DNA of 64,000 bases. Source: Caldicellulosiruptor kronotskyensis 2002 (GTDB lineage Bacteria > Bacillota > Thermoanaerobacteria > Caldicellulosiruptorales > Caldicellulosiruptoraceae). Made by a program: the position numbers and the translations under genes. The stretch is from assembly GCF_000166775.1 (NCBI RefSeq), contig NC_014720.1:2760001-2824000 (forward strand). Reading direction: 5' to 3'. Of this stretch, positions 6,158 through 29,487 are shown piece by piece. The notes under the pieces were generated by a model. The model searched no databases and was not told where the DNA came from. It saw only the letters and a program-made list of their open reading frames with translations. Positions within the stretch are counted from its first letter, which is position 1. Every line of letters begins with the position of its first letter.

Positions 6158-6167
6158 AAAATTACCT

Positions 6168-6227
6168 ACTTTAAAGTTACTAACTTCTGAGTTACTTACT
6201 TTAAAGTTAATTACTTTGAAGTTGATA
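6168..6227 (-). repeat. Four tandem 15-bp repeats upstream of the ATPase relic
   Basis: Four adjacent 15-base units start at 6168, 6183, 6198 and 6213 with consensus ACTTTAAAGTTACTA. The core AACTTTAAAGTT is itself a palindrome. They lie between a TATAAT box (minus strand) and the start codon, as do the matching units at 31438-31497. This is a candidate operator array or a 5'-UTR element. Confidence 0.6.
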
Positions 6228-6360
6228 AATATTATAGCATATTTTCAGTTAGATTTCTATTGCATTTTTTGTTTTTTTGAAAGTTTTCCAGATCGCTGAC
6301 AAAATCTATATTATCACTTTGTTTTGGTATTATATTTTATCTTTGATATCTGTGCTATAT

Positions 6361-9631: not shown

Positions 9632-10875
9632 GTTTGTAGCCTCCCCTTTGGGGATTGAAACTCATTTAAAGCGGTCTTGTCTACAATTACATATGGGTTT
9701 GTAGCCTCCCCTTTGGGGATTGAAACAAGTTAGAAACAATTCTTTTTTTGCTGTTCTATTCTGTTTGTAGCCTCCCCTTTGGGGATTGAAACACACAAGC
9801 ATACCGTCTGAATTGTAGCTAACCTGGTTTGTAGCCTCCCCTTTGGGGATTGAAACCAGTAGATGAAAAAATATTAATTAGGTATTCAGAGTTTGTAGCC
9901 TCCCCTTTGGGGATTGAAACTCTTTCACCCTCCAATGCAGCTTTCAAGTCTTCAAGTTTGTAGCCTCCCCTTTGGGGATTGAAACAGATAATAATTGAGA
10001 AGTATAAAGACGTATTTGAATGTTTGTAGCCTCCCCTTTGGGGATTGAAACTTGAGGATTCGAATTTTACTGAGTTTTTTCTTGCCGTTTGTAGCCTCCC
10101 CTTTGGGGATTGAAACTCATTTTCATCTTTTCACCATACCATTTTGTTACCCGTTTGTAGCCTCCCCTTTGGGGATTGAAACACATACAATCATCTAATA
10201 GATTTGTATTACAAACAGTTTGTAGCCTCCCCTTTGGGGATTGAAACACATACAATCATCTAATAGATTTGTATTACAAACAGTTTGTAGCCTCCCCTTT
10301 GGGGATTGAAACCAAATTTTGCAGGAACATAAAGGTCTTTTGTAATCAGTTTGTAGCCTCCCCTTTGGGGATTGAAACCCATACAATCCACGCTCAATAC
10401 TAATTTCAACAAGGTTTGTAGCCTCCCCTTTGGGGATTGAAACATATATCTGTATTTAAAACATTCCTTACCGCCTTACCGTTTGTAGCCTCCCCTTTGG
10501 GGATTGAAACATAGAAACATGTAAAATGGAGCTCCGCTGTATGCGTGTTTGTAGCCTCCCCTTTGGGGATTGAAACTCATAATCCAGCCCTAAAATCTCA
10601 CAAACTTTAAGTTTGTAGCCTCCCCTTTGGGGATTGAAACTGGAATATATGTGTCCACAGTATCTTTAACAGTTGGTTTGTAGCCTCCCCTTTGGGGATT
10701 GAAACCTCTTGTTGGATATACTCGTTTTTATCTATGGCATCAGTTTGTAGCCTCCCCTTTGGGGATTGAAACTAATTGATTTCGATCCGCCTTCACTCTC
10801 AGGCATAGGTTTGTAGCCTCCCCTTTGGGGATTGAGGAGGAAGGGGGGTTGTAGCCTTCCCGTTGGGAATTGACC
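9632..10875 (+). CRISPR. CRISPR array 1 (19 repeats, 18 spacers)
   Basis: Repeats of 30 bases begin GTTTGTAGCC, have the core CCCCTTTGGGG and end ATTGAAAC. They start at 9632, 9697, 9763, 9827, 9891, 9956, 10022, 10087, 10153, 10218, 10283, 10349, 10414, 10481, 10547, 10611, 10676, 10743 and 10809. Spacers are 33-37 bases. The two spacers at 10183-10217 and 10248-10282 are identical, so one repeat-spacer unit has been duplicated. The last repeat loses its AAAC end and is followed after a short G-rich gap by a decayed repeat near 10848. The leader side is at the left, so the oldest units are at the right. Confidence 0.97.
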
Positions 10876-11108: not shown

Positions 11109-11216
11109 AAAAAAATTACTTCATCAGAAGTATATTTAGACCTCTATGATAGCTTAGAAAATGGATACTATAAATTTTTTGGTGTATCTTTATCGTCGAA
11201 AGGAACTATACAATGA
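11109..11216 (+). pseudogene. Tail of a lost gene overlapping the DUF3800 start
   Basis: A 35-codon coding-like frame (SSEVYLDLYDSLENGYYKFF, ending SSKGTIQ) ends in TGA that overlaps the ATG of the DUF3800 gene as ATGA. There is a stop just before it and no start codon. The ATGA overlap is the usual sign of translational coupling, so the DUF3800 gene probably once had an upstream partner that is now deleted. Confidence 0.35.
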
Positions 11217-11971
11217 AAAAAGAAAAACAACCTTTGATACACATCTATTGTGATGAAAGTTCACAAAATAAAAATAGATACATGATTATTGGTGGACTAT
11301 GGGTTTTGTATGAGAATTTAGAAGAAATAGAAGAAAGTTTTGAGCAGTATAGAATACAACATAATATGTATAGTGAACTTAAATGGGGCAAAGTCTCTCA
11401 AGGAAAATTAGATGAATACAAAAAGCTTGTGGATATAATCTTCAAATTTATAGGAGAAAAGAAAATGGCTTATCGGTGTATAGTTGTAGATTCGTCGCAA
11501 ATGGATAACAGAAAGTATAATAAAGGTGATGAAGAATTAGGTTTTTATAAAATGTATTATCAGCTGTTGTTACATTATATTTATCCTAATTACCGTTATA
11601 TAATCTATCCAGATGACAGAAAAAACTCTTATAAATACAGACTACAAAGTTTACAAATTATACTCAACAGAGGACTTAGAAAAAAGCATAAAATAGATAT
11701 AGATATAGTAAGAAATATTGAGGCGAGAAAATCTCATGAAGTAGACTTAATACAAGCTACTGATATTTTGACAGGTGCAATAGGTTTTCATTGGAATGAC
11801 ATGGATAAAAAAGAAGATGCAAGCCCAGCTAAAAAAGAATTAGCTTTGTATATAGCCCAAAAAGCTGGATTAGAAACTTTGAAATTTTGCCATAGAAAAG
11901 ATTATAGTATGCACTTTCATATCTGGTATTGTGATTTCAAAAAATCAAAGAAGATATATAAAACGAAATAG
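11213..11971 (+). CDS. DUF3800 family protein
   Basis: The 252-residue product has the DUF3800 hallmarks: HIYCDESSQ near the start (acidic residue in the first strand of an RNase H-like fold), then GGLWV, and late in the protein EVDLIQATDILTGAIGF. The family is widespread in phages and defence regions and is predicted, not proven, to be a nuclease. The gene stands between two CRISPR arrays, on their strand. Its stop codon falls inside the first stem of a structured RNA. No strong ribosome site precedes the ATG (GGAAC at 11201-11205), which fits coupling to a lost upstream gene. Confidence 0.8.
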   Translation: MKKEKQPLIHIYCDESSQNKNRYMIIGGLWVLYENLEEIEESFEQYRIQHNMYSELKWGKVSQGKLDEYKKLVDIIFKFIGEKKMAYRCIVVDSSQMDNRKYNKGDEELGFYKMYYQLLLHYIYPNYRYIIYPDDRKNSYKYRLQSLQIILNRGLRKKHKIDIDIVRNIEARKSHEVDLIQATDILTGAIGFHWNDMDKKEDASPAKKELALYIAQKAGLETLKFCHRKDYSMHFHIWYCDFKKSKKIYKTK

Positions 11972-12515: not shown

Positions 12516-12677
12516 GTTTGTAGCCTCCCCTTTGGGGATTGAAACACACCTCACTCTATGTATCTTGCAAGTCTAAGCACCGTTTGTAGCCTCCCCTTTG
12601 GGGATTGAAACAAAGAGTTAGAGAACAAAGTAAGAAGCGAAATCATAGTTTGTAGCCTCCCATTTAGGGGTTGAAAC
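12516..12677 (+). CRISPR. CRISPR array 2 (3 repeats, 2 spacers)
   Basis: Repeats at 12516 and 12582 match array 1 exactly. The third, at 12648, has changes (CCCATTTAGGGGTTGAAAC end) as expected for a terminal repeat. The two spacers are 36 bases each. The array is very short but keeps a complete leader, so it is either young or reduced by deletion. Confidence 0.93.
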
Positions 12678-13171: not shown

Positions 13172-13921
13172 TTATGTTACCAAAATAAAAGAAATATTGT
13201 CATTGAAATTTCCAAGATGAAATCTTTTCTGAAATTCAATACAAAAATCATCAGAAGAAGAAATTTCTGGCATTTCTTTCTCAAATTTATCCCAGAATCC
13301 ATCGCTGCAGATGATGAATCTATCTTCATCAATAATTTCTGTCTCATTTCTATAAATTTGGACCTCTGTTCGATAATTATCTGCTATTACTGCAGAAGTT
13401 AGAGCATGCTTTTTAGAATGAGTCTTTGCCTCATCCACAGTTATGTAGCCACTTGAGATAAGTTCTTCAACCACAGTATGGTCTTTTGTTAATCTAATTG
13501 CTCTTTTTCCAAGTAATCTATACACTCTGCAATCGCCTACATTGAAAACCTGAACTTTGCTGCCAACAATCAAGACTCCAGCTACTGTGCATCCCATTCC
13601 AAAACTGTTTGGATTTGTCCGCGCGTAATTTTCTAATTCATCTCTTGCAATTTTAATTGCATCTTCAATAGAAAGCTTTTTTTCGATGATATCATCTTTA
13701 TAACTTTTCAAAATTTCTAAAACCATCTTTGATGCTAAGTCACCTTTGGTGTGTCCTCCTATACCATCTGCAACAGCAAGAAAAATATTTTTACCATCAA
13801 TATCTATACTCTCACATTTTTCCATATTTGTACTACTTATAATTCTTTCAGAAACTAACAAGGCGTCTTCGTTTGTATCTCTCAAATTTCCTTTATTTGT
13901 AAAATAAAAAACTTTAAACAT
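13172..13921 (-). CDS. PP2C-family protein phosphatase
   Basis: All core motifs of PPM/PP2C phosphatases are present in 249 residues: RDTNEDALL, VADGIGGHTKGDLAS (metal-binding Asp and Gly), GMGCTVAGVLI, VFNVGDCRVYRL, LTKDHTVVEEL, ICSDGFWDKF and a final DNISFILV. It should remove phosphate from Ser/Thr residues using two metal ions and is soluble. It is the last gene of a six-gene operon with a kinase and an FHA protein, which makes those its likely partners. A GGAG ribosome site (AGATAGGAGTTGAAAACATG) marks the start. The gap to the upstream gene is 24 bases. Confidence 0.93.
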   Translation of the reverse strand: MFKVFYFTNKGNLRDTNEDALLVSERIISSTNMEKCESIDIDGKNIFLAVADGIGGHTKGDLASKMVLEILKSYKDDIIEKKLSIEDAIKIARDELENYARTNPNSFGMGCTVAGVLIVGSKVQVFNVGDCRVYRLLGKRAIRLTKDHTVVEELISSGYITVDEAKTHSKKHALTSAVIADNYRTEVQIYRNETEIIDEDRFIICSDGFWDKFEKEMPEISSSDDFCIEFQKRFHLGNFNDNISFILVT

Positions 13922-13945
13922 GTTTTCAACTCCTATCTGTGTTTA

Positions 13946-14431
13946 TTATTGTAATTCATCTACTGTAAGTTCTAAGGATAACGAAAGAGATATTCTGTCG
14001 CCCTTTTTGATTACATCTTTATCCTTTATCTTCATGCCATTTATATAAACTCCATTTGTGCTATTTAAATCCTCAACATACCAGATACCTGCCTGTTTGA
14101 AAAATCTTGCATGTCTTCTTGAAACAGTTTTATATTCCCCCAAATATTCTTTCCCTTTTTCATGTCTGCCTACCACATCGCCACTAAAAACCTCTAACAC
14201 AAAATCTTTCCCTCTCAAAATAATTTTGGAAACTTCAACCATTGTTCTATCATCGCAAGACTCTTTTTTAAAAGATTCATTTCTTTCTATCCCTTCAGTC
14301 TTCTTAGCTTCTCTGACTGCATTGTCCTCAGTTACAGGCACATTTATGATATCTGCCATGCATTTGACGCATATTATTTCATCAGGGGGATTTTGCCAAT
14401 TACAGTTCGGACATATCTTATATCTCTCCAT
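13946..14431 (-). CDS. FHA-domain protein with N-terminal zinc ribbon
   Basis: This 161-residue protein begins with a zinc-ribbon pattern (CPNCNWQNPPDEIICVKC, two CxxC pairs). It ends in a forkhead-associated domain (about residues 75-155) with the phosphothreonine-binding residues of the family: VGRHE, then VSRRHARF and DLNSTNGVYING. It should bind phosphothreonine, presumably on the operon's kinase or on a kinase substrate. The linker is charged. The ATG overlaps the end of the radical SAM gene by 14 bases, so the two are coupled in translation. It is expected to be a soluble adaptor. Confidence 0.9.
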   Translation of the reverse strand: MERYKICPNCNWQNPPDEIICVKCMADIINVPVTEDNAVREAKKTEGIERNESFKKESCDDRTMVEVSKIILRGKDFVLEVFSGDVVGRHEKGKEYLGEYKTVSRRHARFFKQAGIWYVEDLNSTNGVYINGMKIKDKDVIKKGDRISLSLSLELTVDELQ

Positions 14432-15002
14432 TTATGAACACCTCAGCATCTTTTTGGTATGGTATGCCTATTATAACTATTTTATCTTTTTGATTAATAA
14501 TCTGAAGAACTCTTTCTTTTTTCTTTTTTATCCAGAGTAAATAATCATTACCCAAAGACTTATTAAAAAGGAAAAATCGCTGATTTTCTGAGCCTTTCCA
14601 AATCAATTCACTTTCAAGCCCTTTTATAAAAGGGGAATCTACTATTGCATCTATTAGTTTCAAGATATCTTTATGTTTATTCAAAAGGTATTCATATGTG
14701 TATCCAGTATAAACAAGAATGTCATCAAAAAAGTCTCTTATAGAACTTAAAAGAATCAGCAGTGGTACATGCTGGTCAAATGGCTCTCCACCACTTATTG
14801 TTAGTCTTTTGCAACCAAAACTCTTCAGGACATTAGCAACCTGTTCTATTTTAATTGCTCTGCTTTTATCAAATTCCCATGTATGCGAAGACATGCATCC
14901 TTTACATCTTATTGAACATCCCTGCAGCCAAATACCAACTCTTTTACCAGGTCCAAGTGTATAAACAGGATAATGTATAATATTAACTAATAACTCTTCC
15001 AT
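14418..15002 (-). CDS. Radical SAM activase-like protein (NrdG/PflA-type)
   Basis: The CxxxCxxC cluster motif reads CSIRCKGC, followed by the SGGEPF motif that holds S-adenosylmethionine; GPGKRVGIWLQG precedes it, as in NrdG-type activases. The start is taken as ATG 15000-15002, because AGGTGGGAAC lies eight bases upstream and the longer frame would overlap the AAA+ gene further. That gives 194 residues, the normal size for the minimal activase fold. No glycyl radical enzyme is present in the operon, so its target is unknown; it may modify another operon product. It overlaps both neighbours by 14-20 bases. Confidence 0.85.
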   Translation of the reverse strand: MEELLVNIIHYPVYTLGPGKRVGIWLQGCSIRCKGCMSSHTWEFDKSRAIKIEQVANVLKSFGCKRLTISGGEPFDQHVPLLILLSSIRDFFDDILVYTGYTYEYLLNKHKDILKLIDAIVDSPFIKGLESELIWKGSENQRFFLFNKSLGNDYLLWIKKKKERVLQIINQKDKIVIIGIPYQKDAEVFINGEI

Positions 15003-16809
15003 TAAGTTCCCACCTGTCATCTTTTTTGAGTAATTCATTAATCACCACAGTACTTTCTGCTTGAGGAAACAACTTAAACAGAAGCTCTGAAAGAGGATTT
15101 ATAAATAATAGTTCAAGTTTGTTGCCTATTCCTCTTCCACCCATAGACAGGTCTTTTACAATTTCTTCATATATCTTTTGCTGCACATTATCTGATATTT
15201 CAAGCTTTACCCCCTTATCTTCTTCAAGTTTTATCTTAACATTATTCAGCATTTTATCCAATATTCTTTTTACATTTTCACTGCGTATAAAATCAAATAC
15301 AATGATGTTTTCTCCTATACGATTCAAAATTTCAGGTCTTGCAATCTTGAATGTAAAATATTCTTTTATGGCTTCATTCAAAATCTTCTCAATTTCATCA
15401 TAACTCATTTCTGGTGAGATACGCTGTATTTTTTTACCATCCGACGTCACTTCAAAAACACCAAGATTAGATGTAAATATTATTAGACTTTCAGAAAAGT
15501 ATACAGTTTCTCCTCTGCCAGAGGTAAGCCTACCATCGTCAAGTATTTGTAAGAAAATATCAAGTATTTTTGGATGAGCTTTTTCTATCTCATCAAAGAG
15601 GATTACTGAAAAAGGATTTTGTTTTACAGCATTTGTTAATTCTCCACCAACATCATACCCCACATATCCGGGCGGCGCACCAATGAGTCTTTGGTCAGAA
15701 TGTTCATGTGAAAACTCTGACATATCAAATCGTATATAATGATGTTCACTTCCAAATATTAATTCTGTTATAGCTTTTGCAAGTTCAGTTTTTCCTACAC
15801 CGGTTGGTCCTGCAAAAAACAAAACGCCTTTAGGTCTGTTTGAATATCTTGAAAACTGTGAACCCGAAAGATTGAAAAAAGCTCTTCTCAATATAGTAGC
15901 TGCTTGTTTTATAGCTTTTTCTTGCCCCATAACTCTTCTTTTTAAAAATTCCTCTGCGTTATTCAACCTGTCTTTATCTATTTTCGCCCACGGATTTTCG
16001 CTGACACCAACTTTGTATCTCCTTGTCGCTTCACCAATTTCTCTTGCACTCAGATTTTCTCTCTTTGACAAAACTACTATAGAAAGCATTTCCCTTGCAA
16101 ACATGCCAGATGTCAGATTTACAAAATCTTTTATCAATTCTTCTTTTTTGCTGTCAGGTAAACTTGTCCACTCATCCATTCGCGGTAAAAGAGCCTGTGC
16201 TATCCATCTTCTTATCTCAAAATCAGGTTTTGGAATAGGAATTGTTCTTATTCTTGGATTTTCTACAGTATACCACGGCGGTAAATCATTTTCTTTCTCT
16301 ACAAGGAAAATTATTGGATTAAAAGAAGGTGGATTACCTTTTTGGTTTATGTTAATAGAGAGCTTGAATGTATGGTAAAGAAAATCTGGTAAATCTTTGC
16401 TGCAGGAAATCTCTGGCAATCTCGATGAAAAGTTAATAACAACAGCTGTCTTTTCATCTCCTGTAATAAATTTTTCTATAGTTTCATACACATCAATCAA
16501 AGACACAACTTTATCACCAATTTTTCTTCCAGTAAGGTTTGTAAATATTCCTTCATCTCCCTTTAATAGTCTAAATCCTTCAAGAGGAACATACTCTATT
16601 ACAATTTTGTAGTTGTCATATGTAGTAAGCAAATGAGCAATAAATTGAGTTATATTCATGGGTATATATTTTTCACCCTGTGGAAATGGAAATAGGTCAT
16701 AAATATTCCCAAAAAGAATAAACTGAGATGTTATAGAACAAAACCTTAGAAGCTCTTTTGCAAACTTTGGTATGCCTTTGATTTTTTCAGGTATTATTTC
16801 GTTTGCCAT
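14983..16809 (-). CDS. AAA+ unfoldase, Clp/Hsp100 D2-like, with degenerate N-terminal ATPase domain
   Basis: The C-terminal half of this 608-residue protein is a canonical Clp-type D2 module: FAGPTGVGKTELAKA (Walker A), APPGYVGYDVGG (aromatic pore loop), SVILFDEIEKAHP (Walker B), LIIFTSN (sensor 1), ARPEILNRIGE (arginine finger) and MGGRGIGNKLE (sensor 2). The first 260 residues resemble another AAA domain, but the P-loop position reads LFGNIYDLFPF, so it probably does not bind ATP. There is no ClpP-docking (IGF) loop that I can see, so it is more likely a remodeller than a protease partner. It starts four bases after the coiled-coil gene. Confidence 0.88.
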   Translation of the reverse strand: MANEIIPEKIKGIPKFAKELLRFCSITSQFILFGNIYDLFPFPQGEKYIPMNITQFIAHLLTTYDNYKIVIEYVPLEGFRLLKGDEGIFTNLTGRKIGDKVVSLIDVYETIEKFITGDEKTAVVINFSSRLPEISCSKDLPDFLYHTFKLSININQKGNPPSFNPIIFLVEKENDLPPWYTVENPRIRTIPIPKPDFEIRRWIAQALLPRMDEWTSLPDSKKEELIKDFVNLTSGMFAREMLSIVVLSKRENLSAREIGEATRRYKVGVSENPWAKIDKDRLNNAEEFLKRRVMGQEKAIKQAATILRRAFFNLSGSQFSRYSNRPKGVLFFAGPTGVGKTELAKAITELIFGSEHHYIRFDMSEFSHEHSDQRLIGAPPGYVGYDVGGELTNAVKQNPFSVILFDEIEKAHPKILDIFLQILDDGRLTSGRGETVYFSESLIIFTSNLGVFEVTSDGKKIQRISPEMSYDEIEKILNEAIKEYFTFKIARPEILNRIGENIIVFDFIRSENVKRILDKMLNNVKIKLEEDKGVKLEISDNVQQKIYEEIVKDLSMGGRGIGNKLELLFINPLSELLFKLFPQAESTVVINELLKKDDRWELNGRVIS

Positions 16810-16812
16810 ACT

Positions 16813-18357
16813 TTACACACTCCTTTGTCTATGTTGCATATCATTGCTTTTGATATTTTGATGTCTTTTGGCATATTCCATTTTCTCTTTTTTCAGGTAA
16901 TAAAATCTCATTTCAGGTTCGATTCTCTGTTTGTCTTCAATCAATATCCCTTCCTGACTTAAAAGTTGTTTAATTTTGTCATAATCAGAACACCATTTTT
17001 TTGCTATAGATATATCCTTATGTTTTTCATATTCACTTAAACTCCCTTCATCTTCAACATACCTTACAAACATAATTTTTATTCCGTCATTTTCATATTT
17101 TATCCTCAACATATAATCCTCTCCAAAAGGTGTTCTAATTTCTACTATTTCACCCTTTGATAATCTTTCCATTAACCCTTCTTCTACAACAGAATAACCT
17201 AACTCTCTTATTTTTCTAATAAACTTATCCACTGAAACCTTTCTGATTTCCTGTTCCATAATTTGCCTTTTCCTGTCAAGTAGTATTTTTATAAAGTCAT
17301 CAACTACTTCTTTATGCAATATTTCCATTTGCATTAAATCATTAAATTCACTTTTCATTCCTACCTCTTCTGCAAGTGTTTCGTACATTTTTAAATCATT
17401 TTTTAAAACTTCAGTTTGAATATATATTGTCCTCGCCTTTACGTAACTGAACTTGAGGTCTTCAAGAATCAGTTCTACTCTCAGTATATCATCTGTTTCT
17501 TTTGCCTCTTGTATTAACTGCTTTTTTTCTTCTGCCAACTGGAGATTTATATTTTTTAGCTTACCAAATATAGCTTCAATCTTTTCTAATATCTCTTCCT
17601 TTTTTATAACCTTGAGGTTATCTTCTTTAAAAATTTGTTCTACTTCAATTTGCTTTTTTACTTCAAAAGTTTTTTGCTCAAGCAATTTTTGTTTTATCTT
17701 TTTTATAATACCATGATACTCACTTGGTACTTCTTTTAAATACTTCTTTAGTATTTCAATATCTGAAGGATTATCAAATGTACACTTTTCTATAGTGTTT
17801 AGAATTTCAGCATATTGTTGCATCTTTTTATAATATTTTATATTAAATAAATCTTTTGGGAAATTATTTAGATACTGCTTTATAACCTTTACATTTGCAT
17901 TGGGATTTTTAAATTCTTTCTCTAAATTTTCAAACAATTCTATAATCTTTTGTATCTTTTTTTTGGTCTTCAGAGCACCATCTGGTAATACATCTATAAA
18001 AGCTTTTAGTGTTTGGATATCTAAATTATCTGTCAGTTCTGTTTTAACAAAAATAATATACTCCTTCGTTTTTCGAACAATATCTTGCAGTTTTGCAATT
18101 TGCGCGTCAACCCACTGAGTATGGTTTTCACTTAATAAAATTTCCATTGTGTATTTTTCCAAAAAATCTTTCTTGCATTTCTCAAGATTTTCTATTAAAT
18201 CCTCACCTAAAAAGTATGAATCAATATTTTTTAGCATGTCTTTTATATGGCCAATAGAATTATCTATTTGGTTTTTAAAAAACTCTTTATTTTCTCTGAG
18301 AGTTTCAGTCAAATTCTTATTGCCTACAAAGGTCCAACAATAAGTAAAGCTACTCAT
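16813..18357 (-). CDS. Coiled-coil protein of unknown family
   Basis: The 514-residue product is rich in Lys, Glu and Ile with long helical heptad stretches (for example residues 170-400) and no membrane segment. The N-terminus SSFTYCWTFVGNKNLTETLR is conserved-looking. The last 150 residues contain a possible folded part (FIRKIRELGYSVVEEGL, then EIRTPFGEDYMLRIKYENDG) and a basic end. I do not recognise it. Its place between the kinase and the AAA+ gene, with tight spacing, suggests a scaffold, substrate or sensor for these enzymes. The start has an AGAGGATG ribosome site. Confidence 0.8.
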   Translation of the reverse strand: MSSFTYCWTFVGNKNLTETLRENKEFFKNQIDNSIGHIKDMLKNIDSYFLGEDLIENLEKCKKDFLEKYTMEILLSENHTQWVDAQIAKLQDIVRKTKEYIIFVKTELTDNLDIQTLKAFIDVLPDGALKTKKKIQKIIELFENLEKEFKNPNANVKVIKQYLNNFPKDLFNIKYYKKMQQYAEILNTIEKCTFDNPSDIEILKKYLKEVPSEYHGIIKKIKQKLLEQKTFEVKKQIEVEQIFKEDNLKVIKKEEILEKIEAIFGKLKNINLQLAEEKKQLIQEAKETDDILRVELILEDLKFSYVKARTIYIQTEVLKNDLKMYETLAEEVGMKSEFNDLMQMEILHKEVVDDFIKILLDRKRQIMEQEIRKVSVDKFIRKIRELGYSVVEEGLMERLSKGEIVEIRTPFGEDYMLRIKYENDGIKIMFVRYVEDEGSLSEYEKHKDISIAKKWCSDYDKIKQLLSQEGILIEDKQRIEPEMRFYYLKKEKMEYAKRHQNIKSNDMQHRQRSV

Positions 18358-18405
18358 GCTATCATCCTCTTAATTTTTAAATTTATGTTTAATCATCATA
18401 ACGTC

Positions 18406-20463
18406 TTAAGATTTTGAATAATACTGAAATAACAGATAAGAAAAATAAAAATACACTGAGTTAATTAAAATCTTGTTTGCTGTGCCATTAATGAAATATT
18501 CATATGATGAAATGTAAGAAAAATAGAACATAATAGCACAAACGTACAAAATTGATAATCCTGCAATTTTAATCTTGGTAAAGTGAAAAAATTTTTTATA
18601 TAAATAATATGAGAATAATGATATAACAATCAATACAAACATATTATAATTTCTATTGTTATCAAAATATCTTTTGGTTATGACATCGTAAAAATACTGT
18701 TCTGTTGTGAAATATAATATCAACCTTGTAGCTATCAAACCCACAAGGTAAAATACAGCTACTTTATAAATACTTTTTAATGTTTTTTTAATATCTCTTA
18801 AAAGCTTTTTTCTACGGACTGCTTGATGTAATTTATAACCTTTTATTATCCAATCGACTGCTTCAGGCACTGAAAATTCTGCCTTACACCATTCAATTAT
18901 TTCATCTGCTATTCTTTCTAAAATCTTACTATCTTTTGCTCCTTTAAAAACCATTTCTTCAACTTCATCAATGCTGAATCCCAAATTTGTAAATTTTAAT
19001 GCTAATGTTGGCTTTACATCTATTGTTTTCCACCTGACAGCCTCAATTACATTAACATTATTTTTTCTCCATTCATCGGCTTCGTCAGCACTAAATCCTT
19101 TTTCAGCCCAGTTCTTTGCTTCATTAATATCAAATCCGTATTTCTTCCATTTTTGAGCATCTATTTCTGAAAAACCATTCATTATATAATGAAAAATACC
19201 CTTTTCAATAAAATCAAATATCTTATTCTTATCTATGCCTTTTTCTAACAATTCAAGTATATCAAAAGCAGTAATCCCCTTTCTTTGCCACTCGTAAGCA
19301 TTTTTGGGGCTGAGTCCAAGGTTGTCAAATATAGCAGATTCTTTTGGGCTAAAACCATAATTATACCATTCCAATGCAATATTGCCCTTTCTAAAACCAG
19401 CTGAGACCCATTCTTTCATGTCTTTTGCAGAAAATCCAGCTTCCCAAAAAGTTTTTGCCTCTTGCGGACTGAGGTTTATTTCAATGCCTGCCTTTACCCA
19501 CGCTGAGTCAGAAGAAAATCCAACTTTATTCCATTCTTTAACATCATAATTTTTGCTTCCTTCATTATACTCTTCATAGAACACTGGTATGTTTTTCACA
19601 TTATTTAACCACTGCTTGACCTGTTCATATCCCCATCTTTTTTTGTAGTTCCTCGTAAGAAGCCCTTTCAATAAAATTTTGTATCTTTCAGGAATATCTT
19701 CTGGAATTTGTACTCCCTGGGTAGCAAGAGTATTTATAATAACAGCTTCTGATAAATTAGCGAAGGGATTCTTACCTTTTAACACTTCGTATATTATTAT
19801 TCCTAAATGCCACCAATCAATTTCTTTGCCAAAATAACTTGAAATCTCTTCTGGAGCCATATAAGAATATGTCCCCTTGAATGTAGTGAAAACCTTTGAC
19901 ATTTCTTCAGACATAGCAGAAGATATCCCAAAATCAATCAGCACAAGGTCTAATGATTTTAAATCTCTTATAAGAATATTAGAGGGTTTTAAATCTCTGT
20001 GAACAATTCCCTTTTTATGCAGTGCTTCAATAGCTTCTGCAATCTCTTTTACTACAATATCAACTCTGTCTTTTACCTTCTCTAAGTTATCTTTTAAACT
20101 ACCATATTGAATATATTCCATTATCTCAAAATATCTGCCGGTCTGTTCATCTTTACCTACTTCAAAAATTGTTACAACATGTTCTTTTAGCTCAAAAGAA
20201 ATCTTTTTTAATCTTTCTAATACTTCAATTTTGGGGGTAATACCCTTTCTGTATAGCTTTAAAAACATCTTATTACCATCATTTTCTATAACGTAAGCAT
20301 CGCATTCTCCACCTTTGGCTGGTAGTTCCTCTACGATGTTGTAATTTCTAAATGTTGTAATGGTTAATTTTTCTTTTTCGCTTAAAATATCTGTCTCTCT
20401 CACAGTAGCATCTTGTAAATTTTCTTTATCCCACCAGCTCTCTTTTACCGTTTTTTCATCCAT
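18406..20463 (-). CDS. Membrane-anchored Ser/Thr protein kinase with helical repeats
   Basis: The kinase domain covers about residues 35-300: FLKLYRKG (ATP lysine), GIVHRDLKPSNIL (catalytic loop), LVLIDFGISSA (DFG) and YSYMAPEE. A long array of repeats with the pattern W-x(5-8)-GFS-x-x-EA-x-x-W (about residues 320-560) follows, probably for protein contacts. The C-terminus has three or four hydrophobic segments (AVFYLVGLIATRLILYF, FVLIVISLFSYYLY, ILYVCAIMFYFSY), so it sits in the membrane. The ATG at 20463 has AAGGGA before it; a TTG at 20529 is less likely. First gene of the operon with PP2C, FHA and AAA+ proteins. Confidence 0.9.
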   Translation of the reverse strand: MDEKTVKESWWDKENLQDATVRETDILSEKEKLTITTFRNYNIVEELPAKGGECDAYVIENDGNKMFLKLYRKGITPKIEVLERLKKISFELKEHVVTIFEVGKDEQTGRYFEIMEYIQYGSLKDNLEKVKDRVDIVVKEIAEAIEALHKKGIVHRDLKPSNILIRDLKSLDLVLIDFGISSAMSEEMSKVFTTFKGTYSYMAPEEISSYFGKEIDWWHLGIIIYEVLKGKNPFANLSEAVIINTLATQGVQIPEDIPERYKILLKGLLTRNYKKRWGYEQVKQWLNNVKNIPVFYEEYNEGSKNYDVKEWNKVGFSSDSAWVKAGIEINLSPQEAKTFWEAGFSAKDMKEWVSAGFRKGNIALEWYNYGFSPKESAIFDNLGLSPKNAYEWQRKGITAFDILELLEKGIDKNKIFDFIEKGIFHYIMNGFSEIDAQKWKKYGFDINEAKNWAEKGFSADEADEWRKNNVNVIEAVRWKTIDVKPTLALKFTNLGFSIDEVEEMVFKGAKDSKILERIADEIIEWCKAEFSVPEAVDWIIKGYKLHQAVRRKKLLRDIKKTLKSIYKVAVFYLVGLIATRLILYFTTEQYFYDVITKRYFDNNRNYNMFVLIVISLFSYYLYKKFFHFTKIKIAGLSILYVCAIMFYFSYISSYEYFINGTANKILINSVYFYFSYLLFQYYSKS

Positions 20464-20681: not shown

Positions 20682-21305
20682 CTACCTTACACAAAACAAC
20701 TGACAAAACATGTCAAGTAGTTCTGTTGAGGCAAATATTTCGTATCTACCAAAATATTCAATTCTCGATTCAATTAAATGCTGTTTTTTCAGACCATCTT
20801 TTATTACAAAGAAAAACCTCTGGTCTTCTGGATATGCTCCAAACCTTTGGTAGTGGATGCTCAAAAGTTGTCTTCTTAGCATTTCTGAAAAAATCTCTGG
20901 CTGCTTGTCATATTCTAAGCAAACACCATCTTTTTGAACAAACACACCGCTTAGCAAAGTTCCACTTGTCTTTGGTTGTTGCGTCATGCATGAAATTCTC
21001 TTCAAGTAAATACCATCAAACAAGCTATTTAAATTTTCATAAACTTTTAATATGTTCTGTGTAACAAGCTCTAAAAAAGGTGTTGTAAGATATATTCTAA
21101 AATCTTCAAACACCCATACGCCATCCTCAAGTTCTTTTTTGTTTTTTGTTCTAATGGGTGAGATGGTAAACTGCTCTGTAGCAAGAAGACTTTTCAAAAC
21201 TTCATATGCCTTAGAGTAATAAGAGGATGGCAAAAATATACCATCCTCTCTTGCCCAAAAATGAAATGTAAAATATTTTGCCACTTTTTCATCACAGCCC
21301 ATCAT
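20682..21305 (-). CDS. cas6: Cas6-like crRNA endoribonuclease, C-terminus apparently truncated
   Basis: The central block TEQFTISPIRTKNKKELEDG, followed by VWVFEDFRIYLTTPFLELV, is the Cas6 pattern. The place as last gene of a csm operon agrees, with its ATG overlapping the stop of csm5. Cas6 would cut pre-crRNA at the base of the repeat. Family members usually end in a glycine-rich loop (G-h-G-x(5)-G-h-G), but this 207-residue protein stops at MFCQLFCVR without one. Sequence past the TAG still looks faintly coding. A recent truncation is possible, and catalytic residues are not certain. Confidence 0.72.
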   Translation of the reverse strand: MMGCDEKVAKYFTFHFWAREDGIFLPSSYYSKAYEVLKSLLATEQFTISPIRTKNKKELEDGVWVFEDFRIYLTTPFLELVTQNILKVYENLNSLFDGIYLKRISCMTQQPKTSGTLLSGVFVQKDGVCLEYDKQPEIFSEMLRRQLLSIHYQRFGAYPEDQRFFFVIKDGLKKQHLIESRIEYFGRYEIFASTELLDMFCQLFCVR

Positions 21306-22474
21306 CTAATGGTTACTTTTATCCACCCGGGGACTGTCCAAACCTGTCCATCCTTAAACAAAAGACGTCGTGACTTTGGAAAAATATCAGGATTGATTTT
21401 TGACTGAGTATCTACCCTTGAAAGTTTTTCAAAATGGCTCTTATTGAAAAATATTCCCACAGTTTTTGAAAGATATCCTGTTGAAAATCCTATCTGGAGC
21501 AAAAATTGATTTTTGTCAAGAGAATTTAAAATATTCAAAAGTTTTTGATACTCAGAAACAATCTGCTTTTGATTATATTTAGAGTAAAAGGTCATTTCTT
21601 TCTGGATATAATCCTTTGCAACAGAATTTAAAATTTGGGCAACAAATTCATATGGTGAAGATAATACTCCGCTTGTCAAAAGCTTCTCCTTTAACCCTTT
21701 AACTGTGGCATTGCCTTCAATTAAATCTTTTTCAGCCTTTATACTTCCATAAAGCTTTACACCAGGTTTTAATCCTTCAGCAACAATGGCAGTTGCCTGC
21801 TTTGGGTCATCAATATTGCCATTTCTCGAAAACCATTTTGGCTGATTTGAACATATGTTCAAAACTTTTATTTCAAAAATCCCTGCACTCTCTTGCTCTA
21901 CAAAGCTGCTGTCGCTTACCCTTAGGTATTTGAACGGCGATTCATAAGGAGTTCCAAAAATCTTCTCATCTGCATCACGGCTTACAAACTTAGGATCAAC
22001 TCTGTTTCGATTCAGAACTTTCTGGTAAGCATTTGAGAGCGCACTCTCATAAAACTGCAAAAGGTTTTTCGAAAGAGCTTTTGTCATAGAAGATCTCATT
22101 GCCCCTTTTAAGGATGAACCCGGAATGTAAAACCTGCCTGCACTTTTTACAAATGCAACTACTTCTCTGTAAGGGCTTGTAACACCTTCAAGTCTAAGAG
22201 TGTACTTTACCGCCTTTTTAAAATCTATGCTATATTTTTTCAGAATATCTTTTATATTAAAATCCCTTGCACCTGACGAAAGCCCTCGTGAAAGCTCTTC
22301 AATGAAGCTATCTTTAAAAAGGTTTTGCTCAAAGAGCTTATCAAAATTCAAAAAGTACAAGTACTCTCCTTCTCTTACAAACTCAAAACTCTGAATTTTA
22401 TCCTGTCCGCCTATGATTGTGGGAGTCAGAACTTCAATCTCGTATGTTTTGCTTTCAAAACTATCTGCTACCAA
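21302..22474 (-). CDS. csm5: Type III-A CRISPR RAMP protein Csm5
   Basis: This 390-residue RAMP protein has the opening VLTPTIIGGQDKIQSFEF and the glycine-rich FYIPGSSLKGAMRSSMTKAL block shared by Csm3 and Csm5. In Csm complexes Csm5 caps the 3' side of the crRNA filament and helps crRNA maturation. Order and size fit csm5: it follows csm4 with a 14-base overlap and precedes cas6 with a 4-base overlap. No lesion is seen. Confidence 0.88.
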   Translation of the reverse strand: MVADSFESKTYEIEVLTPTIIGGQDKIQSFEFVREGEYLYFLNFDKLFEQNLFKDSFIEELSRGLSSGARDFNIKDILKKYSIDFKKAVKYTLRLEGVTSPYREVVAFVKSAGRFYIPGSSLKGAMRSSMTKALSKNLLQFYESALSNAYQKVLNRNRVDPKFVSRDADEKIFGTPYESPFKYLRVSDSSFVEQESAGIFEIKVLNICSNQPKWFSRNGNIDDPKQATAIVAEGLKPGVKLYGSIKAEKDLIEGNATVKGLKEKLLTSGVLSSPYEFVAQILNSVAKDYIQKEMTFYSKYNQKQIVSEYQKLLNILNSLDKNQFLLQIGFSTGYLSKTVGIFFNKSHFEKLSRVDTQSKINPDIFPKSRRLLFKDGQVWTVPGWIKVTIR

Positions 22475-23474
22475 ACAGCATCACCCCTTCCGGCAGAGGA
22501 ACCAAAAAGGCAAGTCCAAAACAGTATACCCTGTGCTCTGTAAACTTATCAGGTGTGACATCTACCACTCTGCCATATATTTTACTGGAAAACACCGCAC
22601 CCTCGCCAAACACACTGACAGTTTTTCTCTTTATCCCAAGCCCTGCTTTGGAGTAGACATATCCGCTTCGCGTCAAAATCTCATAAAACACAACGCTTTT
22701 TATCTCATCTTCATCTTTCGGATTAACTAAGGACAAACTCATGTAATATTTTGATTTATCGCTTTTAAACTGCGGTACATCATCTTTAAAATCAACTTCA
22801 AAATTTCCAAGCCCGCAGGTTCTATCACCGCCAAGCCCTTCATCGCCCAAAAGCCTTATTGCAGCTTTTACTTTATTTTCAAATTTTTCATTGTTAATCT
22901 TTAAATAGAACCACAGCCCAGCCTCTTTTTCAAATTCAAAATGAGAAAAGTAATATATGTTAGAAGATGATGTTTGCCTGTCGATAGAAACTCTTGCCCT
23001 TTCTTTTATTCTGCCAAGAGAAACCCTTTCTTTATCTTTTTCAAATTCATTTTGTGGTATTAGAAAACTTCCTGTCGGCTTGTATTTGAATGGAAAACCT
23101 TCAAACAAATCCTTTTCTCTTACAAACTTTATTTTCTTGAGCTCTTTTTGATTTTCGGCATTTATTATTCCATTATTCTTATACTCCTCCATGTCCATGC
23201 CAAGAGGAACAGGCACAAAATACTGAAAGTTAACATACGGCATTGTAGATGAAATCTCAAATGGTGGTGTGCCGTTTATGAATTCACTAATCAACTTTTC
23301 AGTTTCATCTTTGCCGTAAAGCAGCGAATATGCATTTATTATGCCAGACATAAGCGTGTCTGAATGTGCAAATACTCTGGTAATGTTGTATATTTTTTCT
23401 TTTTCGCCAATGTGCACAGGTGCTTTAAAGCTCATCACAGCTCTGCAAATTTTGTTTTTGACCATTTTTATCAC
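22461..23474 (-). CDS. csm4: Type III-A CRISPR RAMP protein Csm4
   Basis: The 337-residue product opens CRAVMSFKAPVHIGEKEKIY and later has GLGGDRTCGLGNFEVDF, the glycine-rich loop of the Cas5-type RAMP fold. Csm4 binds the 5' handle of the crRNA and holds Cas10. An ATG at 23465, nine bases inside, is spaced better from AAAAGG than the GTG at 23474. The gene is 20 bases from csm3 and overlaps csm5. Confidence 0.88.
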   Translation of the reverse strand: MIKMVKNKICRAVMSFKAPVHIGEKEKIYNITRVFAHSDTLMSGIINAYSLLYGKDETEKLISEFINGTPPFEISSTMPYVNFQYFVPVPLGMDMEEYKNNGIINAENQKELKKIKFVREKDLFEGFPFKYKPTGSFLIPQNEFEKDKERVSLGRIKERARVSIDRQTSSSNIYYFSHFEFEKEAGLWFYLKINNEKFENKVKAAIRLLGDEGLGGDRTCGLGNFEVDFKDDVPQFKSDKSKYYMSLSLVNPKDEDEIKSVVFYEILTRSGYVYSKAGLGIKRKTVSVFGEGAVFSSKIYGRVVDVTPDKFTEHRVYCFGLAFLVPLPEGVMLFGSR

Positions 23475-23493
23475 CTTTTAAAAAACAGATTTG

Positions 23494-24294
23494 TTAAGAA
23501 AGCTTTAGCTCATCAAGGCTTTTTGCCGTCGCTATTGGCTGAAGTTTGCTTGAATCCTTTTCATAATCGCTTGAATCCTTGTAGAATATCTCTATATCAA
23601 CAAATTTTACTTTTCCATTTCCTCTTGAACCCTGCCCGCCAAGGTAATCATCTTCTAACAGCTTCATTGCTTTGATAAACTTTTCAAGGTAGTATTTCTG
23701 GTCATCTTTGCTGTCAACTTCAAACCTGTTTACGACAAACTCTGCTGAAAACTGTGCGCCCGCAGGAACTCTTTCACTCTGTCTTGGATGTGCTTTTGAT
23801 GTTATTCTATCTATATTATTCTCAAACTTTACTTCTGTCCAGTCAAGGTCAAGGTTCTCCTTCATCTCTTCCGTGATAGAAGTTTCTATCAGCTTTGCAT
23901 CGCGAACAATTAGCCTTGTGGGGATGACTGCATCTGTAAGATCTATTTTCTCACCACTTTTTAAATCATGAGAACCATGGTTTCTGCCAAAAAGTCCGCA
24001 TACAGGACAATTCAAATCATCACACATATGAAGGCATATCTCTGGCCTGCCTTCCCTTTTGACCGACACAACAAGCAAATTATCTCTTACCTTTCCTTCA
24101 GCAAACTCCATTAAAGCCCTCATCTTGCCTTTGAGAGATGAACCTGGAATGTAAGGCCTGCCTTTTGCATCTTTTACAACTGCATTGTCAATTCCACCTA
24201 TCTCAAGGCTGTTGTTGCCCTCACCAATGTGAAGACCTGTTTGAGCTTCTATCTTACACTTTATGATGTACTTTCCTTTCAAGATTACATCCAT
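23494..24294 (-). CDS. csm3: Type III-A CRISPR backbone RAMP Csm3
   Basis: This 266-residue protein has the family blocks GLHIGEGNNSLEIGGIDNAV, YIPGSSLKGKMRALME and GGQGSRGNGKVKF. The Asp of GIDN corresponds to the catalytic Asp with which Csm3 cuts target RNA every six bases. A CxxC-containing insert (CDDLNCPVCGLFGRNHG) is typical of the family. Csm3 forms the backbone of the complex. It follows csm2 by about 25 bases with a GGGGGAG ribosome site. Confidence 0.93.
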   Translation of the reverse strand: MDVILKGKYIIKCKIEAQTGLHIGEGNNSLEIGGIDNAVVKDAKGRPYIPGSSLKGKMRALMEFAEGKVRDNLLVVSVKREGRPEICLHMCDDLNCPVCGLFGRNHGSHDLKSGEKIDLTDAVIPTRLIVRDAKLIETSITEEMKENLDLDWTEVKFENNIDRITSKAHPRQSERVPAGAQFSAEFVVNRFEVDSKDDQKYYLEKFIKAMKLLEDDYLGGQGSRGNGKVKFVDIEIFYKDSSDYEKDSSKLQPIATAKSLDELKLS

Positions 24295-24318
24295 GGCAAT
24301 AGTCTCCCCCTTTTGAGA

Positions 24319-24780
24319 TTATTGTTCTCTTCCACCATGATACCTGTAATATGCTATAATTGCCTCAAAAAAGTTTTTGTAATCATCAAATGTCCATTTA
24401 TTCTGGATAACCATATCGCCAGCTTTCTTAACAACTTTGAAAAAAGATTGCCAATCATTTTTATTTTTATCACTTCTAAATCTTCCAACAGTATAAGCCA
24501 TTATCATTTCTATTCTTTTTACTTCTTGCTTTGGATTAATTTTATTCTTTATCTTGCTTTTTTTCTGAATTTCAGAAAAAACTTTTCTTATTTGAGTCAT
24601 CGTAATTTTTCCAACAAGCATTTTGCCAATTTCTTCAGCAGTTTCATAAAATAACAATCCATCTCTATCTTTTTCTTTATCTAACAGTAAGTTCATTTTT
24701 TCAATTACAAAGTCACCCCATATTTTATTTTCTCTATTGTTTTGTTCATCATTATATTGATTAGCTTTTTGTTTTTGCAC
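24319..24780 (-). CDS. csm2: Type III-A CRISPR small subunit Csm2
   Basis: The 153-residue protein is helical and charged. It carries ETAEEIGKMLVGKITMTQIR, followed by KVFSEIQ, the recognisable stretch of Csm2, and a C-terminal FFEAIIAYYRYHGG. Csm2 lies along the crRNA-target duplex in the complex. Its place between cas10 and csm3 agrees. The N-terminus is Gln/Asn rich and low in complexity. It starts 31 bases after cas10. Confidence 0.87.
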   Translation of the reverse strand: MQKQKANQYNDEQNNRENKIWGDFVIEKMNLLLDKEKDRDGLLFYETAEEIGKMLVGKITMTQIRKVFSEIQKKSKIKNKINPKQEVKRIEMIMAYTVGRFRSDKNKNDWQSFFKVVKKAGDMVIQNKWTFDDYKNFFEAIIAYYRYHGGREQ

Positions 24781-24810
24781 CTTTCGTTCCTCCTCTCAAA
24801 TAAATTATTT

Positions 24811-27324
24811 TTACCTTCTCAGCTCAAGCTCAGCCCAGCGTGCTGCAAGGTAAGAGTGCTTGTACAAAGAATTTGATTTTTTATCAATAATTTTTTGCAA
24901 AACATCTTCAAGATCTTTTGAATACTTCTTATACCTCTCTTTCAGCCTTGCCATGAAATACACAAATCGCCACGACTTGAAAATTTCTTCTTGAGTCTGA
25001 GTCATCTTTTTAAGATTGCAAACGGCATAGATGCCGTTTATAAGCGCTTTTGAAACGTTCTTGCTACCAATTAAATCTGTAATTGCCTCTTTTAGCTTTT
25101 CCACATCCTCATAATCTTCCCAGCCAACAAAATTACCCCCAAACGCAAAACAGTCTTTTTTTCGCCCATCTTCTCTTTGGTACTCTTTGGCTTTGTCTAA
25201 ATGTTCTCCACACACAATAGCAACCCTGTAAATTGGATATTTTTTATCTGGTGCTATTTCAAAGCCCATTGAAAGCGTAATGTCTGGATTGTGGCATGAA
25301 AAGCTTCTAAACTCTGTATAAATTTTGTGTGCTGTATGCGGTAGCACATCCCACTGACCAAGTATGCAAAAGTCATCTCCACCTGCATAAATAACAACAA
25401 TATTGCTCTGCTGCTCACTTACAAGCCTGTTGAAATAGTAGCCGAAAAATAGTGAAAACTCCTCAGATAGAGTCATCACTCTTGAAATTGAACTGTCTTT
25501 GCCAAGCCCTTCTTTGAAAATTTTCCCCAGATTATCAACATCACCGCGAACAATTCCCCATGTTTTGATTCCTTTTGATGAGTTTGATATCTCATCTATT
25601 GTTTTAAGATTGTTTTCATCTTTAAATGGTGCATGGGTTGAAATATCCAGTGCTTCATAAAAATCAATCTCAAATTTATCGTCTGATTTTTTTCTATTTT
25701 CAAGATTATTATTTTTTTCTAACAATTTCTCCAATCGATTTCTGTCAATAACAATTGTATTATTCACTGGGTTTATAACCTTTTCAGAGTAGTTTGAAAA
25801 TTCAATCTTTCTTCCAAAGGCTTCAAAAATATCTTCTATGTTTTTAAAATCCGAAAACTCGATTTGTTCGCCCCATGATTCTTTGATAAAATCACTTTTC
25901 ATAAGTTTTTCACCAAATTCGACAAAACTCTCGCAAAACGGACAAAAATCAGGGTCATCTTCTTTGGGTCTCAGCGCTCTGTGGCAGTGAGGACATTTTT
26001 GTTCATAGTCCTCGTATGGTTCAAAGAATTTCAACTCTTGATTTTCAATAACGTTTCTAAATTTCGAAATCTTTTTCCTGTAGATTTTTGACGAAACTCT
26101 ATCAAAACAATCTCCAAAATTGCCTGAAAAATCATAAAGGTCAACTATATCTGTCTCAAGAAGTATACTGATTGAGCCTCGGTGTGCTTTAAATAAAAGC
26201 TTGTCAATTTCTTTCTGATAATCTTCCACTTTTTCTGCAAAATATGCAGGCATCAGAAGATAAAAATGTCCACCACCGTTAAATATTAGGTTGCAAATAG
26301 GCATATTTTCTTTTTTCAGAATGAACCTCGCAACTGTATCAAGCAAAAATGATATGTAAAACGACTTTGCCTTAAGAGCTTTCAGCGCCCCATCCATCTT
26401 TGTGTCAAAAACAAAATCTTGAATGCCAGAAATATCACCCTTAACAAGACAAAAGTACGGAAATTCTCCTTTTTTAATTGAAGAACCTCTACCGGATAGG
26501 ATTTTTGTATTGATTGACTCTAAAACTCTAACTCTTTCATTTTCCTGTGAAAACTCTTTTTTAAGCTGCCTGTCAAGACAAAATGCAATAGCAGCAGTTG
26601 ATTTGCTGTGCGCCCACAGTGATATGTCCGGTTTGGAATAATAAAAAGCTGATGGAATATTGTATGTGTAAATTCTGATTAAGTTGTAAATTGCTGATAC
26701 ATATTCTTCTAAATCAAAATGTATTCCATTCAAGGATTTTTCAAACTTATTTTTTAGTATTAAGGCTTTTTTAGAAAAGTCTTCCCAGAGATTTTGATAG
26801 TCATTTCTTGCGTTTGAATTAAAACTGTCAGTGGGATACTTAATTTCATACCTTTTTGTTAAATTTTTGTAGTAAGTTTTTCGACTATTTTTTTCATTTT
26901 TGTCAAGACATATCTGAGAAAGAATTGAAATAAGATACTTTGATTTGTCAGCAGATGTATCATCTTCTTCGATGTCTTTTCTGTCAACACTTGCTGAAAT
27001 CTTGTCCGCAACGCTTATTAGATATTGACTGTATGATGACGGTTTGTGATGATGAAGAACAAGATTTGTTACATCTTTCAAAATTTCTTTTTTAAATCTT
27101 TCTGGCAATATTTGCTGCACATAATATGCCCCCCAATCCTCATGCCGAGGAGCATGCTTTCCGGCTTCTTTAAAAAATACATCGTATTCTCTCGATATTG
27201 TTGTTTTAGCCTCAGAATTTTCGGTTCTCATATAAAACTTGCCAATGTCATGTAAAATAGCGCCAAGAAAAATGTTGTAATCCAAAATTTTATCTTCTGT
27301 TTGATGAGCATTGTAAAAAATCAT
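24811..27324 (-). CDS. cas10: Type III-A Cas10 (Csm1) with HD and GGDD motifs
   Basis: The 837-residue large subunit has an N-terminal HD domain (GAILHDIGKF, His25-Asp26), two zinc-binding CxxC pairs (residues about 444-464, CPHCHRALRPKEDDPDFCPFC) and a palm domain with VVIYAGGDDFCIL (GGDD near residues 648-651). HD gives single-strand DNA cutting and GGDD gives cyclic oligoadenylate synthesis when target RNA is bound; both motifs are complete. It heads the csm genes. Two CARF-HEPN genes and a Csx20-like gene in this window are fitting receivers and quencher of its signal. Confidence 0.95.
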   Translation of the reverse strand: MIFYNAHQTEDKILDYNIFLGAILHDIGKFYMRTENSEAKTTISREYDVFFKEAGKHAPRHEDWGAYYVQQILPERFKKEILKDVTNLVLHHHKPSSYSQYLISVADKISASVDRKDIEEDDTSADKSKYLISILSQICLDKNEKNSRKTYYKNLTKRYEIKYPTDSFNSNARNDYQNLWEDFSKKALILKNKFEKSLNGIHFDLEEYVSAIYNLIRIYTYNIPSAFYYSKPDISLWAHSKSTAAIAFCLDRQLKKEFSQENERVRVLESINTKILSGRGSSIKKGEFPYFCLVKGDISGIQDFVFDTKMDGALKALKAKSFYISFLLDTVARFILKKENMPICNLIFNGGGHFYLLMPAYFAEKVEDYQKEIDKLLFKAHRGSISILLETDIVDLYDFSGNFGDCFDRVSSKIYRKKISKFRNVIENQELKFFEPYEDYEQKCPHCHRALRPKEDDPDFCPFCESFVEFGEKLMKSDFIKESWGEQIEFSDFKNIEDIFEAFGRKIEFSNYSEKVINPVNNTIVIDRNRLEKLLEKNNNLENRKKSDDKFEIDFYEALDISTHAPFKDENNLKTIDEISNSSKGIKTWGIVRGDVDNLGKIFKEGLGKDSSISRVMTLSEEFSLFFGYYFNRLVSEQQSNIVVIYAGGDDFCILGQWDVLPHTAHKIYTEFRSFSCHNPDITLSMGFEIAPDKKYPIYRVAIVCGEHLDKAKEYQREDGRKKDCFAFGGNFVGWEDYEDVEKLKEAITDLIGSKNVSKALINGIYAVCNLKKMTQTQEEIFKSWRFVYFMARLKERYKKYSKDLEDVLQKIIDKKSNSLYKHSYLAARWAELELRR

Positions 27325-29466: not shown

Positions 29467-29487
29467 ATATCCAGTTTTAAATTGAAA

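Follow-up and report, generated by a model that had tools for sequence, protein, structure and literature searches.

A mobile gene cassette joining a Clp-type AAA+ protein and a radical SAM enzyme to a phosphorylation switch, with a possible role in defence

KKP antiphage systems (PfkA-PfkB-PfpC), for which a defence role has been shown, are defined by two kinases encoded next to a PP2C phosphatase, one kinase carrying a cold-shock domain and the other fused to an FHA domain (PMC11341870). The MoxR-vWA ternary systems, a group of NTP-dependent predicted conflict systems, join ATPase remodelling to signalling domains, and a radical SAM gene is part of one FtsH ternary subtype (PMC7159879). Here we analyse a six-gene cassette in a 64,000-nucleotide stretch of Caldicellulosiruptor kronotskyensis 2002 (contig NC_014720.1, positions 2,760,001 to 2,824,000; hereafter the window). 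The cassette comprises the following genes:

13172..13921, minus strand: PP2C Ser/Thr phosphatase (Pfam PP2C, 3.7e-12; Stp1 model, 141.8 bits)
13946..14431, minus strand: zinc-ribbon (CPNC, CVKC) and FHA phosphothreonine-binding protein (Pfam FHA, 3.2e-15; motifs)
14418..15038, minus strand: NrdG-like radical SAM enzyme (Pfam Fer4_12, 1.7e-29; motifs)
14983..16809, minus strand: Clp/Hsp100-type AAA+ protein (Pfam AAA_2, 1.4e-48, and ClpB_D2-small; predicted model; motifs)
16813..18357, minus strand: coiled-coil protein, here called MS-Cys (alignment of relatives)
18406..20463 (ATG; alternative TTG start at 20529), minus strand: membrane Ser/Thr kinase (Pfam Pkinase, 1.7e-39; motifs)

The six open reading frames (ORFs) are closely packed on one strand, with gaps of 48, 3 and 24 bases and overlaps of 56 and 14 in the window's ORF list, and no spacing reaches 60 bases. 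Pfam agrees with the kinase, AAA+, radical SAM, FHA and PP2C families that the initial annotation had assigned from the letters. Promoter and terminator scans gave signals no better than shuffles.

Like KKP, the cassette sets a Ser/Thr kinase against a PP2C phosphatase, includes an FHA domain and is mobile, but it has a single kinase and no cold-shock domain, and its FHA domain sits on a separate zinc-ribbon protein, which places it outside the KKP definition. It also adds an AAA+ unfoldase, a radical SAM enzyme and a coiled-coil protein, none of which is found in KKP. Remodelling joined to signalling is shared with the MoxR-vWA systems; unlike them, the cassette has no vWA match in Pfam and no MoxR protein, as first noted, its ATPase being of the Clp/Hsp100 class (AAA_2/ClpB_D2-small) and its radical SAM enzyme NrdG-like and constant rather than sporadic. 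It differs too from MADS, in that the MAD6 kinase model gave 88.3 bits against a cut-off of 460 and no other MADS genes were seen among the six, apart from a match of 17 bits between the AAA+ protein and mad8.

Relatives were located through a family-specific DNA pattern, TVYFSE..[IV]IFTSN, in genome contigs in which a single-protein scan gave nothing. The pattern marks at least 119 loci across many phyla, plus one viral contig. Iterative profile searches on these loci and ten earlier ones, most of them only 8 kb long, recovered ORFs for all families: 130 for the AAA+ protein, 84 for the radical SAM enzyme, 61 for the FHA protein, 46 for PP2C, 45 for the coiled-coil protein and 31 for the kinase. 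AAA+ and radical SAM genes occur together in 27 of 28 stretches, none of them longer than 20 kb. All six functions were found in 11 loci (up to 20 kb) outside the genus, with reshuffled gene order, if a subtype that we label k9 is counted as the coiled-coil protein; an Aristaeella lactis plasmid has the order DUF4011 protein, kinase, hypothetical protein (in the coiled-coil position), FHA protein, radical SAM enzyme, AAA+ protein, PP2C. The supposition that the six genes never occur together elsewhere thus fails. Since full sets keep reappearing with their genes in a different order, the synteny is real, and recurrence on this scale lies far beyond chance.

Comparison of these loci indicates that the constant core is the AAA+ protein, the radical SAM enzyme and the MS-Cys protein, and that the kinase, FHA protein and PP2C form an interchangeable add-on to this deeper unit. 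Form A consists of the core with the kinase, FHA protein and PP2C, and in several loci (L174, L179) a helicase that ends in a REase_MTES_1575 domain is encoded upstream of the kinase on the same strand. Form B comprises an SF1 helicase, a PIN protein, an MS-Cys protein, the AAA+ protein and the radical SAM enzyme, without the phospho-switch, and plasmids of Moellerella, Leisingera, Acinetobacter, Polaromonas and Photobacterium carry it. Its helicase matches MkoA of the SF1 helicase defence systems in PADLOC (1.6e-88), but only the helicase is common to the two, its form-B partners being the PIN, MS-Cys, AAA+ and radical SAM proteins. No relative of this helicase was found in the window's genome. 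The five-gene form-B cassettes L190, L191, L192, L193 and L194 lie on proteobacterial plasmids, some of them conjugative, and one is near ArdA and restriction genes; taken alone, this plasmid cassette already resembles a defence system.

In a third lineage the AAA+ gene has DUF4236 and CotH/DUF4956 neighbours, with no radical SAM gene or phospho-switch in view. The neighbourhood reads CotH, DUF4956, VTC-like, (CapA-like), AAA+, DUF4236 in L047, L053, L084, L090, L121, L137 and L158, all names except DUF4236 having been recognised by eye. At four other loci (L085, L117, L130, L141), BspA-like leucine-rich-repeat proteins are encoded between the radical SAM and AAA+ genes and could be sensors or targets.

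The AAA+ protein belongs by its fold with the Hsp100/Clp ATPases. Its predicted structure (pLDDT 92.4) aligns over residues 9-608 to both rings of ClpC and ClpB with Z of about 31, and its second ring is 39-40% identical to ClpB NBD2 structures and keeps Walker A (GPTGVGKT, 334-341) and Walker B (VILFDE). The second-ring Walker A is retained in 56 of 58 relatives and the Walker B, LFDEIEK, in 55. None of the 58 has a Walker A within the first 260 residues, and the dead N-terminal ATPase domain first noticed in this one protein is thus conserved across the family. The protein starts at the equivalent of D1 and therefore has no ClpN domain. Compared with ClpB, ClpC and ClpV, which share its two-ring fold, it differs in the missing first-ring Walker A and N-domain and falls below every equivalog cut-off. 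A motif search of the window protein found no ClpP-type [ILV]G[FL] loop, so that a role as a chaperone or disassembly enzyme seems more likely than one in proteolysis.

A Clp-type ATPase beside a kinase, a PP2C and an FHA protein recalls the threonine-phosphorylation pathway of type VI secretion systems (T6SS; PpkA/PppA/Fha/ClpV), and the cassette could in principle serve an unrecognised contractile apparatus. The four functions match and the ClpV model reaches 220.6 bits, but its cut-off is 884.95, and TagH gives 23.4 bits against a cut-off of 120.25. The absent ClpN domain, the dead first ring and the presence of a radical SAM enzyme also set the cassette apart. A scan of about 40 proteins encoded by neighbouring genes at related loci showed no contractile-apparatus families, a whole-genome search for sheath and tube not having been made. 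We consider a T6SS-like pathway very improbable.

The radical SAM enzyme carries CSIRCKGC (41-48) and GGEP (83-86) in the window, and CxxxCxxC and GG[DE]P are kept in all 82 relatives, placing the family within the radical SAM superfamily. The best family match is NrdG, whose score of 98.6 bits is below the TIGR02491 cut-off of 126.1, and the best PDB sequence match of the family profile is the PFL activase. The initial annotation saw an activase without a glycyl radical partner; there is indeed none in the operon, but the genome encodes NrdD 0.5 Mb away. Since no match above the NrdG cut-off was found elsewhere in the window's genome, the enzyme might be an extra NrdG for anaerobic ribonucleotide reductase, its cassette neighbours being unrelated. 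Against this, the radical SAM gene is tied to the AAA+ gene across phyla with no NrdD beside them, and a plain NrdG is unlikely because NrdD is present in all 12 congeners and the cassette in only four; we give this explanation hardly any weight. Identity as a prokaryotic viperin (pVip) was rejected, with only 20 bits in PADLOC and 14.7 against a cut-off of 180 in NCBIfam.

The coiled-coil protein has no significant Pfam or NCBIfam family. It begins with a conserved MS- start (MSGPK in many relatives), from which variable helices lead to a C-terminal alpha-beta domain at about 349-470. Within this domain Cys456 (window numbering) is invariant in 39 of 39 form-A coiled-coil and k9 members, and profile comparison of the coiled-coil and k9 subtypes (3.8e-8) supports a common origin. 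In the nine aligned form-B proteins, a Cys of this region lies a little further upstream; profile comparison of form A with form B is not significant, so the form-B protein is a putative homologue by position and pattern. Among the core members, only the coiled-coil protein combines a conserved free terminus and an invariant Cys with the lack of any known enzyme fold, which makes it the strongest candidate for a substrate of both the AAA+ protein and the radical SAM enzyme.

Several other identities for this protein were tried and rejected. A PADLOC match to Csx1/Csm6 (1.2e-17) lies mostly in the coiled-coil part and is gone in a 70%-identical orthologue; shuffled and reversed sequences also lack it, and Pfam finds no CARF or HEPN domain. 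Matches to RhoGAP and DUF3038 fall under the cut-off and are absent from other members. A GYxV motif in the C-terminal domain suggested a glycyl-radical site, but some form-B members do not keep its glycine. Likeness of this domain to the KA1 domain (2qlv_A, Z 8.2, 89 aligned, 3.5 A; 5wi2_B, Z 7.2, 86 aligned, 2.9 A) is within the range of chance arrangements, and Foldseek gave no match with E below 0.1. A further comparison comes from an operon of a Gammaproteobacteria metagenome-assembled genome (MAG; L167/L197) with the order AAA, DUF2997, DUF1257, transmembrane protein, NrdG-like radical SAM enzyme. Such Ycf35-type operons share with the cassette an AAA ATPase, an NrdG-like radical SAM enzyme, small proteins and a Cys in DUF2997 in a similar pattern, but their ATPase is Cdc48/FtsH-like with an intact Walker A, and no kinase, FHA protein or PP2C was seen. 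They may be a simpler relative of the cassette core; the pattern is suggestive, but homology of the MS-Cys domain to DUF1257/DUF2997 was not significant.

The phospho-switch of the window is complete. The kinase keeps HRD (155) and DFG (177) and carries four GFS-like repeats at about 343-466, followed by C-terminal transmembrane helices with at least two transmembrane segments, which bears out the first description of a membrane kinase with repeated GFS motifs; such repeats also occur in the kinase of a Leptospiraceae homologue. PP2C retains DGIGG, GDCR and SDGF, and the motifs of the FHA protein and its zinc ribbon (CPNC, CVKC) are intact. Kinase, phosphatase and FHA protein are thus all present with their active-site motifs kept, as the claim of a full switch had implied.

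In a phylum-wide search, full-length relatives were found in three congeners at 99, 96 and 90% identity, alongside more remote ones of about 40%. The coiled-coil gene is patchy, being present in 4 of 12 congeners. In the AAA+ tree the window groups with a Leptospiraceae MAG (64% identity), Campylobacterales, Dethiosulfovibrio and Nitrospirae with support of 100/100, so that the phyla joining it are Spirochaetota, Campylobacterota, Synergistota and Nitrospirota; the Bacillota rows stand apart and form B makes a separate clade. Tree placement and presence in four of 12 congeners together point to horizontal acquisition of the cassette across phyla. A separate observation from the same tree is that the AAA+ proteins of a Muribaculaceae MAG (L079) and a Blautia MAG (L136) are nearly identical, with end branches below 0.01, by recent transfer or a binning error.

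The cassette lies within a CRISPR region, whose features in the window are as follows:

9632-10838, 28771-29260 and 31967-32598: CRISPR arrays (array scan)
12516..12677, plus strand: short CRISPR array with two exact repeats plus a degenerate one; it lies downstream of the PP2C gene and outside the cassette (array scan)
20682..27324, minus strand: type III-A CRISPR operon, upstream of the cassette and co-directional with it; a neighbour and possible partner
24811-27324, minus strand: cas10/csm1 (Cas10/Csm1, 1.6e-46)
23494-24294, minus strand: csm3 (Csm3, 9.5e-45)
within 20682..27324, minus strand: csm2, csm4 and csm5, named by position
20682-21305, minus strand: putative cas6, so named by position because it gave no PDB sequence match

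The exact repeat copies listed for the whole genome form one stretch from 2725100 into the window; this stretch and the window arrays cover about 70 kb, or 2.4% of the chromosome, with the cassette inside. Side features of the region include duplicated 300-base stretches around the arrays (29230-29529 and 32503-32802, 98%; 5931-6230 and 31201-31500, 92%), a 213-base array leader that recurs in four diverged copies (9449, 12333, 28589, 31784) and a DUF3800 gene that stands alone on the plus strand between two arrays (11213-11971). All four congeneric copies are in or near CRISPR loci. The closest relative, the Leptospiraceae MAG (L187), has all six functions and beside them a type I-B operon (Cas8b, 9e-139; Cas3) and a 44-repeat array. 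The reported CRISPR location therefore stands here, in three congeners and in the Leptospiraceae MAG, but the link is specific to this clade: only 2 of 158 fetched loci have arrays, both within it.

These neighbours raise the possibility that the cassette is an accessory module of type III (or I-B) CRISPR, in which a Cas10-made signal or infection would trigger the kinase and the AAA+/radical SAM core would be the effector arm. The cassette is co-directional with the csm operon in the window and in G179, csx1, CARF and cas10 genes adjoin the set in G301, arrays flank it on both sides in G152, and the I-B operon accompanies the Leptospiraceae homologue. On the other side, Pfam finds neither CARF nor any other sensor of cyclic oligonucleotides in the cassette's products, the Csx1/Csm6 match is lost in the close orthologue, and no fetched locus outside the clade has an array. 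We judge such a dependence on CRISPR improbable.

Other loci have other surroundings. Form-B loci adjoin a type III restriction-modification system (L172) or HerA and an nSTAND gene (L171), and a DpdF match near L175 was discarded as defence evidence, being a RecQ-like helicase by sequence. Several loci (L185, L175, L178, L043, L044) lie among housekeeping or surface-protein genes, L185 among housekeeping ones; others lie by defence genes or on plasmids. Secreted or surface proteins stand directly beside some sets, with Fn3/Ig (L042), copper-amine-oxidase N (L043) and SH3 (L044) domains. Together with the BspA-like proteins, the CotH/DUF4956 neighbourhood of the lineage with AAA+ and DUF4236 only, and the membrane-bound kinase of the window, they would suit a phospho-regulated cell-surface, secretion or stress machine, in which the kinase senses the envelope, the core assembles or recycles structures of the envelope or cytoskeleton, and CRISPR closeness is incidental. 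The neighbours vary by locus, however, form B has a helicase and PIN protein on plasmids without a kinase or surface genes, and distribution is patchy with transfer between phyla. We regard a surface or stress machine as rather unlikely, though worth keeping in view.

To the reading that we favour, a mobile, phosphorylation-gated protein-remodelling module most likely serving defence against invading nucleic acid, we give an even chance. The gene set, conserved motifs, conserved synteny and transfer between phyla are read from sequence; the defence role and every step of the mechanism below we infer. Defence is supported by nucleic-acid enzymes encoded in the same operon (the MTES_1575 helicase in form A, the SF1 helicase and PIN protein in form B), by the patchy and mobile sets and by defence neighbours (Cas8b/Cas3, type III restriction-modification, HerA). 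A defence role was first suggested with predicted conflict systems and the CRISPR setting in view; defence genes near some loci and conjugative plasmids provide links to defence, whereas the CRISPR link is confined to one clade. Several points weigh against defence. Neither a nuclease nor a toxin is recognised in the window's own operon; no PADLOC model covers the cassette, so matches there are to generic domains only; and defence neighbours were judged locus by locus. The rarity of arrays, the loci among housekeeping or surface genes and the non-significant comparison of form-A with form-B MS-Cys proteins count on the same side.

PP2C phosphatases oppose kinases and FHA domains read phosphothreonine, Hsp100 rings thread exposed termini, and NrdG/PFL-AE-like radical SAM enzymes act on protein partners. 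In the proposed mechanism, the core would be a one-active-ring AAA+ unfoldase with a dedicated NrdG-like radical SAM enzyme and the coiled-coil MS-Cys protein as likely substrate or scaffold. At rest PP2C would hold the system silent; once triggered, the membrane kinase would phosphorylate the coiled-coil protein or itself, and the zinc-ribbon FHA protein would bind the phosphosite and recruit the AAA+ ring there. The ring would grip the coiled-coil protein by its conserved, exposed N-terminus and remodel it, the radical SAM enzyme would modify it, with Cys456 as the candidate site, and the altered protein would license an effector. In relatives this could be the helicase-REase, or the helicase and PIN protein, of the same operon. 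Because the window's operon encodes none, the effector there would have to be the type III-A CRISPR machinery next to it or the kinase itself, through toxic phosphorylation; kinase toxicity has been shown for KKP (PMC11341870).

The gene set is not described in the open-access literature that we searched, subscription papers lying outside the search, and the system is conserved, mobile and apparently undescribed, with defence as the leading candidate for its role. Tentatively, we see it as possible that it is a new kind of immune system, in which a constant core of Hsp100 unfoldase and radical SAM enzyme acts on one partner via an invariant Cys, is plugged with kinase, FHA protein and PP2C or with a helicase-nuclease, and arms an effector by unfolding and radical chemistry. 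If so, it would add a common, transferable module to the known list of defence systems, one in which an Hsp100-type unfoldase and a radical SAM enzyme, both unusual in immunity, apparently serve a shared partner. Many gene pairs annotated as AAA family ATPase and 4Fe-4S single cluster, with no function assigned, would also gain one. If the cassette is instead an envelope or stress machine, it would still be an undescribed phospho-regulated remodelling system found across many phyla.

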